The translations under genes were made by a program, and so were the position numbers. The notes beneath the pieces are model-generated. The model made no database searches. It was not told the origin of the DNA and saw only the letters and a list, made by a program, of their open reading frames with translations. Below are positions 32,401 to 37,773 of a stretch of DNA of 64,000 bases, one piece after another. Origin of the DNA: Nitrospiraceae bacterium (GTDB lineage: Bacteria; Nitrospirota; Nitrospiria; Nitrospirales; Nitrospiraceae); assembly GCA_009692155.1 (NCBI GenBank), contig SHZW01000003.1, positions 62,001-126,000 on the forward strand. Reading direction: 5' to 3'. The first letter of the stretch is position 1, and every line of letters starts with the position of its first letter.

Positions 32401-32433
32401 GCGGGGACAGGCCTGTGAGCGGTCTGTCCCCGC
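32401..32433. terminator. Hairpin downstream of uvrA
   Basis: GCGGGGACAG and CTGTCCCCGC form a perfect 10-bp stem around 13 nt. It lies past the end of the leftward uvrA gene, beyond the structured element at 32460, and before the SnoaL-like gene's start. Confidence 0.45.
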
Positions 32434-32459: not shown

Positions 32460-32533
32460 GGCTGACTCGCAATTGCGCGCGTCCAACGAGGGCCTTCTGA
32501 GGCCGCGCGTTGCGCGAGCACAGCGAGTCAGCC
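32460..32533 (+). repeat. Structured element, copy 1: conserved 48-nt core in variable stem
   Basis: Outer arms GGCTGACTCGC (32460-32470) and GCGAGTCAGCC (32523-32533) are perfectly complementary. They enclose a 48-nt core (32474-32521) that begins TGCGCGC and ends GCGCGAGCAC. The core is identical at 38 of 48 positions, without gaps, to that of copy 2 (37710-37757), while the outer arms have quite different sequences. Distances arm-core are the same in both (3 nt left, 1 nt right). Confidence 0.8.
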
Positions 32534-32549: not shown

Positions 32550-35069
32550 TCAACCCACGCCCGCTTCTTTCAATACTTGCCCCGTGTACGAGCGCTTGAT
32601 CTTCGCCAACTCACTCGGCGCGCCTTCGGCCACGATCTCGCCGCCACGGTCGCCGCCTTCCGGTCCCAGATCAATGAGCCAGTCTGCGTTCTTGATAACA
32701 TCCAGATTGTGTTCAATAATCAGCACGGTATTGCCCGCCTCCACCAGCCGGTTCAACACGTCGAGCAGCCGCTGGATGTCAGCGAAGTGCAGCCCCGTCG
32801 TCGGCTCGTCCAATATATAGAGCGTACGCCCGGTGGCGCGCTTCGATAACTCGCGCGAGAGTTTCACCCGCTGGGCTTCGCCGCCCGAGAGCGTCGTCGC
32901 CGACTGGCCCAGCCGGATGTAGTGCAGGCCCACATCGTGCAGCGTCTGCAGCTTATTTTTGAGCAGCGGGATGGGCTGGAAAAATTCCAGGGCCTCGTCC
33001 ACCGTCATGTTCAACACATCGGCGATGCTGCGGTCCCGGTACTTCACTTCGAGCGTCTCGCGGTTGTACCGCTGGCCTTTGCAGACCTCGCAGGTCACAT
33101 AGACGTCCGGCAGGAAATGCATCTCGATCTTGATCAGCCCGTCACCTTCGCAGGCCTCGCACCGCCCGCCCTTCACGTTGAAACTGTACCGGCCCGGCTT
33201 GTAGCCGCGCACGCGCGACTCCGGCAGTTGGGCAAAGAGGTCGCGGATGAAGGTGAAGAGACCGGTATACGTTGCCGGGTTGGACCGTGGCGTGCGCCCG
33301 ATCGGCGATTGGTCGATGTCGATCGCCTTATCCAGGGCCATGACGCCTTTCAGTTCCTTGCACCCGTCGATCCTGGGATGCTTGTGATAGAGCAATTGCG
33401 AGAGCGAGTGAAAGAGCACTTCCAGCACGAGCGTGCTCTTGCCGGAACCAGACACGCCGGTCACGCAGGTGAGCAGGCCCAACGGAATTTTGACCGTGAG
33501 GTTTTTCAGATTGTGTTTGCGGGCCCCGACGACGCTGAGAAATCCCCTCGGTTTGCGCTCGCGATGCGGCAACGTCACCGTCATCTCGCCGCGCAGGTAC
33601 TGGCCGGTCAGCGAGGCCTTGGTGGCCATCACCTCCTTCAGCGTGCCTTGCGCAATGATTTGCCCTCCGTGCGCGCCGGCGCCAGGCCCCATATCAAGAA
33701 TGTGATCCGCAGCCTGCATCGTTTCCGCGTCATGCTCCACCACCACGACCGTATTGCCGAGATCGCGCAGCCGGATCAGCGCCTGGAGCAGCCGCCGGTT
33801 GTCGCGCTGGTGGAGGCCGATGGACGGTTCATCGAGAATGTAGAGCACCCCCACCAGCCCCGAACCGATCTGCGTGGCCAGCCGGATGCGCTGCCCTTCT
33901 CCTCCGGACAGAGTCGCGGCGGCACGGTCCAGCGTCAGGTAATCAAGCCCGACGTTGACGAGGAAGCCCAGCCGTTCGCGAATTTCTTTCAGAATGCGCT
34001 GGGCGATGAAGGTTTCCCGCTCCGTCAGCTTCAGCGACTCGACAAAGCCTGCTGCCGCCCTGATCGACAGTTGCGTGACTTCGGCAATCGAACGCCGGCC
34101 CACCCTGACCGAGAGGCTTTCCGGCTTCAGCCGGGCGCCCTTGCAGGCCGGGCAGACTTCCAGCAGGGTCAGGTCCTCCTCCTCGGGGCTTCCCGGCGGC
34201 ATGGCGAAGCCGATCCCGTCACAGGTCGGACAGGCGCCGTGCGGACTATTAAAGGAGAACACGCGGGGGGTGATCTCCGGATAGCTCACGCCGCAGCGGA
34301 TGCAGGCCAGTTTCTCGCTATAGAGCAAGCTCTTGCCCTCTTCCGTCAGCACGCCGACCAGCCCCTCCGCCAGTTTCAGCGCCGCCTCGACCGAGTCGGC
34401 CATGCGCTTGGATAACGCATCGCCCGGCCCACCGGCTTTCATGACCAGCCGATCCACTACGACTTCGATTGTGTGCTTTTTCTGCTTGTCGAGAGGAAAT
34501 TCCTCTCCCAAATCGACCATCCGGCCGTCGATCCGCGCACGCACGTAGCCGGCCCGACGCATGTCCAGCAATTCCTTGCGGTATTCGCCTTTGCGGCCAC
34601 GGACGATCGGAGCCAGGATCTGAAACTTCGAGCCGTCCGGAAGAGCGCGGATCGCATCCACCATCTGCTGGACGGTCTGGGCCGAGATCTCTTCGCCGCA
34701 CTGGTGGCAGAAGGGGTGCCCGATGCGGGCGAAGAGCAATCTCAAGTAATCGTAGATTTCCGTGACTGTGCCGACCGTGGAGCGGGGGTTGTGGCTGGTG
34801 CTCTTCTGCTCGATGGAGATGGCCGGCGACAGCCCTTCGATCGAGTCCACGTCGGGCTTGCCCATCTGTTCCAGGAATTGCCGCGCGTAGGCGGAGAGCG
34901 ATTCCACATAGCGGCGCTGCCCTTCGGCATAAATGGTATCGAAGGCCAGCGACGACTTGCCGGACCCGCTCAAGCCGGTGATGACGACGAGCCTGTCCCG
35001 CGGAATCTCGACGTCGAGATTCTTGAGATTATGCTCCCGCGCCCCCTTGATGACGATCGAACCTGACAT
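32550..35069 (-). CDS. uvrA: Excinuclease ABC subunit A, short form lacking insertion domain
   Basis: An 839-residue UvrA; the family is usually about 940. Both ABC modules are present: Walker [10 protein letters not shown] (32-40) and GVSGSGKST, signatures [12 protein letters not shown] and [11 protein letters not shown], zinc modules CIRCG...CPTCDG, CPACKG and CEACEGDG...CEVCKG. The UvrB-binding domain (about 120-240) is intact. What is missing is the insertion domain of about 100 residues that normally lies between CPTCDG and CPACxG: here they are only about 20 residues apart (near 280-306). That domain contacts DNA in characterised UvrA. A TATAAT box at 35080-35085 suggests a nearly leaderless transcript. 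Confidence 0.95.
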
Positions 35070-36016: not shown

Positions 36017-37657
36017 ATGAACTCCGTTCTTTACGTCTTTCTCCCCTGCAAGAAGGTGTACCCGATCGGGATCACCTACCTGGTGGACTTCATCCACCGG
36101 CGCAAGCCGGATGTTCGGCAGCGCATCCTGGACCTGTCGCTCTATCCGAAAGATCAGCGTGGCAAAGTCCTGCGCGAAACCGCCACGGCCTTTTCGCCCG
36201 ATCTGGTCTGTTTCTCCTGGCGGGATATCCAGATTTTCTCGCCGCACGAGGGCGACAATTCGCTGGAGCATGCGTTCAACTTTTACTTCGCCAGCAACCC
36301 GTTCAAGCGGATCACCGCCTCGTTTGAAGGCGTGAAACAGCTCTACCGGTACTACGACCACATCCGGACGATTTTGTCGTACCCCTGGCTGATCCGGAAG
36401 GAATTCCCTAAAACGCAGATCATGATCGGCGGCGGCGCCTTCACGGCCTTTGCCGACCAATTGATCGAAAAACTTCCCGACGGCACGATCGGCATCCTGG
36501 GCGAGGGCGAGGACGCCATCTTGAAAGTCTTGAGCGGCGAGTCGCTGGCAAACGAGCGCTATATCGTCCGCGAGAACGGGAAAGTTTCAAAAGGCCAGCA
36601 GGGGGCGCCGGCTCTCCTCGATGCGCTGACCGTGGATCTGCCCTATCTCACGTCTGTCTTTCCCCAGCACACCGAGTTCCGGGACGAATGTATCGGCGTG
36701 CAGACCAAGCGCGGCTGTCCCTATGACTGCGCCTTCTGCCTCTATCCCTACATCGAGGGCAAGCGCGTGCGCTACCGCCCGCCCGAAATGGTCGTGCGGG
36801 ATATCTCGCAGCATTATCATCAGTGGGGCGCGCGGCGATTCTGGTTCACGGATGCCCAGTTCATCACCGGCAAGGAAGCCTATCCGCAGTGCACGGAGAT
36901 TCTCGAGCGGATTCTCCGGGAGAAACTGGAGATCGAGTGGTCGGGCTATATCCGCACGTCGCTGATCACCGCTGATCTGGCGAAGCTCATGGTCCGCTCC
37001 GGCGTGGGCGACCTGGAAGTCGCCATTACGTCCGGCTCGCAGGAGATACTCAACGATCTCCACATGGGCTTCAAACTGGAAAAGCTCTACGACGGCTGCC
37101 ACTATCTGGCCGAGGCGGGCTTCAAGGGCAAGGTGATCCTGAATTACTCGCTGAACTCCCCGCACGAGACGGAAGAGACCCTGCTGCAGAGCGTCGAATC
37201 CTACAAAAAGGTCGCGGCCATTTTGGGCGAAGATAGAGTATTCCCGCTGATGTTCTTCCTCGGCATTCAACCCAACACCGATCTCGAACATCGCCTGCTG
37301 GAGGAAGGCTATCTGTCTGCCGGGTACAACCCGCTCATGCTGACGCCGCGCAGCATCAAGAAACTCCTCTATAACCCGGCTCCCCTGAACAAGATCATCG
37401 CCAAGGCCTGCTTGGCCGCCTGGGAGAGAAAGCACGGCAGCCAGGATTCCCGCGCCTGGTCCGGGTCACTGTCGCAAGCCGAGCGGACGGCTCCTGCATC
37501 GACCGGTTATGCGGACGGGAACCTGATCCGCGGCATCGAACAGAATTCAGGACGGCACGCGCTACTCACGCTGGAAGAAATCATCCGTTCTCGAAAAGTG
37601 GCTAGCTCCCCAAAAGGTTCGACTCCTGCCAATTCGCCAGCTATCTCATCTAGTTAG
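36017..37657 (+). CDS. Radical SAM protein with B12-binding-like N-terminal domain
   Basis: A 546-residue protein. The first 180 residues look like a cobalamin-binding-type Rossmann domain as in BchE-like radical SAM enzymes (PIGITYLVDFIHRRKP, FPKTQIMIGGGAFTAFADQL, GEGEDAI), but no DxHxxG histidine motif is seen, so any B12 would bind base-off by other means or not at all. Then the radical SAM core with C234-x3-C238-x2-C241 (RGCPYDCAFC), followed by GARRFWFTDAQFITGKE and YIRTSLITADLAKLMVRSGV. The last 90 residues look disordered. Substrate unknown; the next genes (PCP_red fusion, AhbD/NirJ-like enzyme) suggest tetrapyrrole chemistry. Start chosen at 36017; an upstream in-frame start lies in the repeat. 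Confidence 0.82.
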   Translation: MNSVLYVFLPCKKVYPIGITYLVDFIHRRKPDVRQRILDLSLYPKDQRGKVLRETATAFSPDLVCFSWRDIQIFSPHEGDNSLEHAFNFYFASNPFKRITASFEGVKQLYRYYDHIRTILSYPWLIRKEFPKTQIMIGGGAFTAFADQLIEKLPDGTIGILGEGEDAILKVLSGESLANERYIVRENGKVSKGQQGAPALLDALTVDLPYLTSVFPQHTEFRDECIGVQTKRGCPYDCAFCLYPYIEGKRVRYRPPEMVVRDISQHYHQWGARRFWFTDAQFITGKEAYPQCTEILERILREKLEIEWSGYIRTSLITADLAKLMVRSGVGDLEVAITSGSQEILNDLHMGFKLEKLYDGCHYLAEAGFKGKVILNYSLNSPHETEETLLQSVESYKKVAAILGEDRVFPLMFFLGIQPNTDLEHRLLEEGYLSAGYNPLMLTPRSIKKLLYNPAPLNKIIAKACLAAWERKHGSQDSRAWSGSLSQAERTAPASTGYADGNLIRGIEQNSGRHALLTLEEIIRSRKVASSPKGSTPANSPAISSS

Positions 37658-37691: not shown

Positions 37692-37773
37692 GGCGTGGGA
37701 GCGTCCGACTGCGCGCATTCATCGAGCACCTTCTTAGCGTGCGCGGTGCGCGAGCACGGGATGCTCTCACGCC
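37692..37773 (+). repeat. Structured element, copy 2: conserved 48-nt core in variable stem
   Basis: Arms GGCGTGGGAGCGTCC (37692-37706) and GGATGCTCTCACGCC (37759-37773) pair along 15 positions, two of them as G-U pairs in RNA. The core (37710-37757) matches copy 1 at 38 of 48 positions with the same start, end and spacing to the arms. It sits between the radical SAM gene and the promoter of the USP/PCP_red gene. Confidence 0.8.

Follow-up and report, generated by a model that had tools for sequence, protein, structure and literature searches.

Structured intergenic repeats of the Nitrospiraceae with a freely varying outer stem around a conserved core

Two hairpins in the stretch of 64,000 nucleotides analysed here (the window) are members of a large group of short, non-coding repeats found throughout the Nitrospiraceae. 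Broadly, the element is a conserved core of 48 nt enclosed by an outer stem of ~20 bp whose sequence varies, and its total length is ~90-100 nt. Dispersed palindromes of bacteria usually keep the sequence of their stem and are judged by it. The present family is the reverse case, with a fixed core and a freely varying stem. Hundreds of natural variants exist in one bacterial family, the strand that folds is clear and the position after genes is constant, so that the repeats offer an unusually strong natural data set for deciding between DNA mobility, RNA function and the mutational upkeep of palindromes. Their hosts, nitrite-oxidising bacteria, are hard to manipulate and have gene ends that are poorly understood.

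Two hairpins in the window and their relatives

Copy 1 reads on the plus strand from its 5' outer arm GGCTGACTCGC (32460-32470), which is variable among copies, through a 3-nt spacer AAT (32471-32473; the usual form is NAC) and the conserved 48-nt core (32474-32521) to the 3' outer arm GCGAGTCAGCC (32523-32533), which starts 1 nt after the core. The core is built from a TGC/GCA stem, a G·A mismatch, a CGCG/CGCG stem, a CAACG/CGTTG stem and an apical GGCCT hairpin. The 3' arm ends ~16 nt from the stop codon of a uvrA-like gene on the minus strand (32550-35069). A second hairpin, GCGGGGACAGGCC...GGTCTGTCCCCGC (32401-32433, with no strand assigned), adjoins copy 1 and recurs 5' of the element beside several other copies within the same genus. 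Copy 2, also on the plus strand, has the 5' outer arm GGCGTGGGAGCGTCC (37692-37706), the spacer GAC (37707-37709), the core (37710-37757) and, again 1 nt after the core, the 3' outer arm GGATGCTCTCACGCC (37759-37773). Its outer stem has 15 pairs, two of them G·T, and it lies between a radical-SAM-like gene that ends at 37657 and a universal-stress-protein-like gene. The two cores are alike at 38 of 48 positions, with ten differences and no gap; the coordinates, this identity and the spacers of 3 nt and 1 nt given by a first-pass annotation all proved correct on re-reading. When folded as RNA, the plus strand gives z-scores of -6.2 (copy 1) and -5.3 (copy 2) against dinucleotide shuffles, none of 200 of which matches, and both hairpins fold strongly on either strand. 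Within the window only these two stand out, at 79.7 bits (copy 1) and 65.6 bits (copy 2) under the core covariance model as compared to 12.5 for the next matches, scores that are partly circular because both cores were used in building the model. A scan of the window for TGC...GAGCA within paired arms returned nothing else above chance.

Independently of the model, a blastn search with copy 1 of its own genome (an assembly of 1.93 Mb in 27 contigs, 90% complete) found ten more places, with 89-100% identity over 47-54 nt and with outer arms that are different each time, and the core covariance model gives 26 matches there at E <= 0.001. The first-pass annotation had named two outcomes that would speak against it, a lack of more copies or identical stems everywhere; more copies were found, and their arms differ. 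The covariance-model search of relatives that it had proposed detects the element in 23 of the 25 family genomes sampled, at 0 to at least 86 copies per genome, the high counts being lower bounds as the best 150 candidates of each genome were scored. Numbers among relatives are uneven (0, 1, 2, 7, 26, at least 59 and at least 86). Of 246 genomes sampled across the phylum 57 match, all of them in the same family, and no element was detected in the other families of this sample. Plasmids and phages gave no blastn match. An exact pattern of the degenerate core was found in none of the viral contigs and in none of the genome contigs, the latter null being contradicted by the carrier genomes of the family and hence no proof of absence. 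A protein encoded in the window is 91% identical to one of Nitrospirae bacterium RIFCSPLOWO2_02_FULL_62_14 and 81-86% identical to those of many Nitrospira, N. moscoviensis and N. defluvii among them; the host's placement in the Nitrospiraceae follows from these names.

Pairing, folding strand and place beside genes

Copies are ~89% alike in the core and 43% alike in the outer arms. The core is longer (75-78 nt) in some lineages, and such forms predominate in one genome (G018). Among 28 diverse copies most outer pairs are seen as three or four pair types. In an alignment of 16 same-register copies, picked from those with well-paired arms, 94.6% of the outer cells are paired and two-sided changes occur in 15 of 15 outer pairs; none of 500 shuffles reaches the observed pairing or covariation, and six slid versions also fall far below. 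Two-sided cells in the outer stem number 96 as compared to 30 in shuffles. In a less selected set of 39 copies, a copy's own arms pair at 12.6 of 16 positions and swapped arms at 8.3 of 16, and 20 of the 39 beat every swap. The inner stems covary too. Counting outward from the core, positions 5-9 of the outer stem are almost free and position 10 is G in 74% of copies; in a few copies (L033, L052) one arm is derived from another element. Pairing is kept through two-sided changes beyond shuffled controls, as expected of a structured RNA or single-stranded DNA, and the first-pass proposal that structure is kept while sequence changes is upheld with many copies and with shuffle and swap controls.

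The strand on which the fold is kept can be read from the mismatches in the arms. RNA strands typically carry more G·T than A·C mismatches, and on the core strand, among copies thinned to arms less than 65% alike, G·T occurs 60 times and A·C 10 times, which identifies the core strand as the one whose fold is kept. The ratio is 46:12 in the common gene arrangement and 18:4 in copies that have a start codon on their 3' side; the bias is thus the same whatever the direction of the neighbouring gene and follows the element rather than the gene. Transcription of the nearby gene is ruled out as its source, since it persists in copies whose core runs in the sense direction of the adjacent gene or points at its start, and an origin in related copies is ruled out by the thinning, after which 60:10 remains. 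Core-free hairpins after other genes have a weak bias (128 vs 87). The fold is kept on the core strand, and both RNA and single-stranded DNA fit this bias.

Gene positions were taken from a simple codon-based caller. Of 137 copies that could be placed relative to them, 136 are intergenic, with a gene on either side, and one falls inside a called gene. For 107 of the 136, the nearest gene end 3' of the core is a stop codon, and stop codons within 70 nt of the core number 59 on the 3' side vs 2 on the 5' side. After the arms are counted, the element sits 0-40 nt beyond the stop codon, so that in the mRNA of that gene it would directly follow the stop with its core antisense. Copy 1 obeys this rule, its core being antisense to the uvrA-like gene; copy 2 is an exception, with its core in the sense direction of the preceding gene. 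The flanks on the core strand are pyrimidine-rich, with a tract of ~70-80% C+T after the 3' arm, and the sense strand after the hairpin is purine-rich and poor in T. A TTTT run lies within 15 nt of the hairpin in 9% of copies on the core strand and in 5% on the sense strand. Promoter-like sites upstream on the core strand are not enriched (0.043 vs 0.027 in shuffles).

Orthologous gene ends and nested palindromes

Comparison of orthologous gene ends suggests both turnover and upkeep. At the copy-2 site, RIFCSPLOWO2_02_FULL_62_14 has an ortholog that is longer and branched; among the other Nitrospira regions compared, a core element is present only in L113, ~290 nt upstream of the gene corresponding to the copy-2 site. 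At the uvrA end occupied by copy 1, relatives of the element were seen by eye in G018 and G013, and elsewhere unrelated long palindromes or none obvious. In the genus of G010, three species carry the element at one orthologous gene end with both arms altered (L191, L424 and L412), and the pair L202/L414 differs in the central part of both arms and agrees at the stem ends. Close pairs hold nine two-sided paired changes, 13 one-sided changes that keep the pair through G·T and 11 one-sided changes that break it, counts that are small and pooled over overlapping pairs; on these comparisons the copies seem to maintain their pairing in situ, if not strictly. Other orthologous pairs have arms from a different subfamily, which implies replacement or new insertion, and presence or absence of the element differs at orthologous gene ends. 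An apparent empty site (L180 vs L409) is too diverged for a target duplication to be read, and no clean empty site with a target duplication was recovered at the orthologous sites.

In G010 and G016 there are recently multiplied subfamilies whose arms are common to unrelated sites. Some copies lie inside units bounded by CAGGATGCTCAAAAAG...CTTTTTCAGCATCCTG, about 11 of 56 in G010, most copies being free of such ends. G010 also contains a second palindrome family, of 122-126 nt, with ends CAGGATGCT[C/G]AAAAAG (L371, L374, L378, L390 and ~130 other places), conserved internal loops (CCAGCAAGGCCGCAGCGAG / GAGAACGCCGCTGG; GAGGCGTACC / GGTACGTTGA) and covarying inner stems; hairpins of the window type are nested in some of its copies, and this family of 124-nt palindromes, with which the element forms composites, has ~266 end sites in that genome. 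A third family, of ~190 nt, is seen downstream of uvrA in relatives (L337, L340, L341, L344, L346 and L351), with variable outer stems of ~20 bp and a conserved ACCGTTGGCC-type core. Branched composites, in which hairpins are inserted in loops or stems of other copies, occur at L228:3032-3122, at L067 from 3208 onward and at L232:2690-2920. The shared-arm subfamilies, composites, nesting and copy-number differences among relatives all point to spread.

What the element may be

The explanation that we hold tentatively, at somewhat less than an even chance, is a non-autonomous, REP/MITE-like intergenic repeat of the Nitrospiraceae that is recognised through its folded core strand. The core strand folds into the variable ~20-bp outer stem around the conserved core; a putative enzyme would recognise the folded core, most likely as single-stranded DNA, and place new copies in one constant orientation at the ends of genes, where they may do the least harm. 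If recognition needs the shape of the stem and not its sequence, the arms would be expected to drift yet stay paired; an influence on the adjacent gene, if there is one, would be secondary. Against a mobile repeat stands the lack of a mobilising gene in the searches of copy-rich genomes, partly incomplete assemblies, for Y1_Tnp and reverse transcriptase. In addition, the changes in both arms at orthologous sites suggest that copies maintain their pairing in situ, something for which a purely mobile element would have no need.

The searches for mobilising genes covered Y1_Tnp, IntI and RVT_1, in assemblies of which some that are rich in copies are incomplete, and found no autonomous partner or parent transposon. 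The first-pass annotation had thought of a REP-like element and had pointed to a RAYT/IS200-like transposase; Y1_Tnp (PF01797) has no match in eight carrier genomes (G000, G001, G002, G010, G015, G017, G020 and G023), being absent from the element's own genome, its two congeners and G010, with its at least 86 copies. The likeness to REPs holds for dispersed, intergenic, palindromic and nested copies; it fails for the RAYT link and for the tag, as no GTAG/CGTC tetranucleotide at the hairpin foot is conserved in the alignment of copies. Retroposition was rejected, as the reverse transcriptase domain PF00078 is absent in G000, G001, G010 and G016. An integron site, suggested by place and strand, was likewise rejected: TIGR02249 exceeds its cut-off in G013 only, and the spaces between clustered copies there hold no cassettes. 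As separate observations, G013 encodes two high-scoring integron integrases (C1:2948499-2949434 and 4636485-4637291), G016:C48 9638-13476 has three short C-terminal integrase-like pieces at ~1.83 kb spacing, and a classical attC-looking palindrome, unlike the element by eye, follows a gene near the 3' end of L327 (G004:C8).

A second explanation, possible and clearly less probable, is that the core strand is transcribed and that the element acts as RNA, for instance as a terminator of, or barrier to, antisense transcripts entering the gene from its 3' end, or else as a small RNA whose core a protein binds. The G·T excess on the core strand, the compensating arm changes at one site in different species, the fixed direction at the ends of transcription units, the pyrimidine-rich tract after the 3' arm, and the unrelated long palindromes that take the element's place at the uvrA end and elsewhere in relatives all fit this account, but a conserved 48-nt core is unnecessary for a terminator, four-T runs are infrequent and upstream promoter-like sites are not enriched over shuffles. 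No family of Rfam 15 scores above its gathering threshold. As to the first-pass suggestion of a non-coding RNA, the strand test shows that the core strand folds, and neither a core-strand promoter signal nor an Rfam match accompanies it. Bolder, and in our judgement doubtful, is the claim of a new class of single-strand-folding element, probably RNA antisense to genes, whose 48-nt core would be bound by a cellular factor, with any stem sequence allowed that pairs, and which would guard or mark gene ends across the Nitrospiraceae and be exchangeable with other palindrome families at one and the same gene end.

It is improbable that structural selection is lacking altogether, the palindromes being kept paired by template switching between the arms in replication and spread by ordinary duplication. 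Template switching produces compensating changes of several bases at once and keeps stems perfect (PMC8794818); L202/L414, with its mid-stem replaced on both arms at once and its ends kept, speaks for this account. By itself, however, it predicts neither a strand bias that follows the core nor a conserved core with fixed placement after stop codons, and the core-free hairpins have only their weak bias. More improbable still is a hairpin of the sense mRNA that terminates the upstream gene or stabilises its 3' end: the distance from the stop codon and the strong fold on both strands would suit it, but the mismatches on the sense strand are A·C and not G·U, and beyond the hairpin that strand is rich in purines and poor in T, with T runs in only 5% of copies. 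It is scarcely credible that the element is a classical REP moved by a RAYT (Y1_Tnp) transposase or an integron attC site, for although its dispersal is REP-like and attC sites likewise follow stop codons, with folding of the antisense strand, Y1_Tnp is lacking in G000, G001, G002 and G010, a full integron integrase occurs in G013 only, with no cassettes between clustered copies, and the attC-looking palindrome in G004 does not resemble it.

A limited literature search found no paper on such repeats in Nitrospira, and as far as the literature shows, the combination of a fixed core inside a free, covarying stem with a single folding strand and constant placement after genes is undescribed. The REPs comprise GTAG and CGTC superfamilies, the CGTC REPs being without a known transposase, in an account that does not mention Nitrospira (PMC3733652). 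Like REPs and BIMEs, the element is short, palindromic, intergenic, high in copy number and often nested or clustered; unlike them, it measures ~90-100 nt as compared to 20-40 nt for REPs, has a hypervariable, covarying stem and a conserved internal core, lacks a GTAG/CGTC foot tag and keeps a direction fixed towards stop codons. With MITEs it shares dispersal and non-autonomy, and some G010 copies lie within a terminal-inverted-repeat unit, whereas most copies are without constant terminal inverted repeats and neither a target duplication nor a parent transposon was found. Integron attC sites are similar in their position directly after stop codons, in the folding of the antisense strand and in a structure that outweighs sequence; the element differs in that its conserved part is internal and its outer stem variable, in its dispersed single copies without cassettes and in the absence of an integrase from most carriers. 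Intrinsic terminators are also GC-rich hairpins at gene ends, but the folding strand of the element is antisense to the near gene, its core is conserved and it mostly has no T run.
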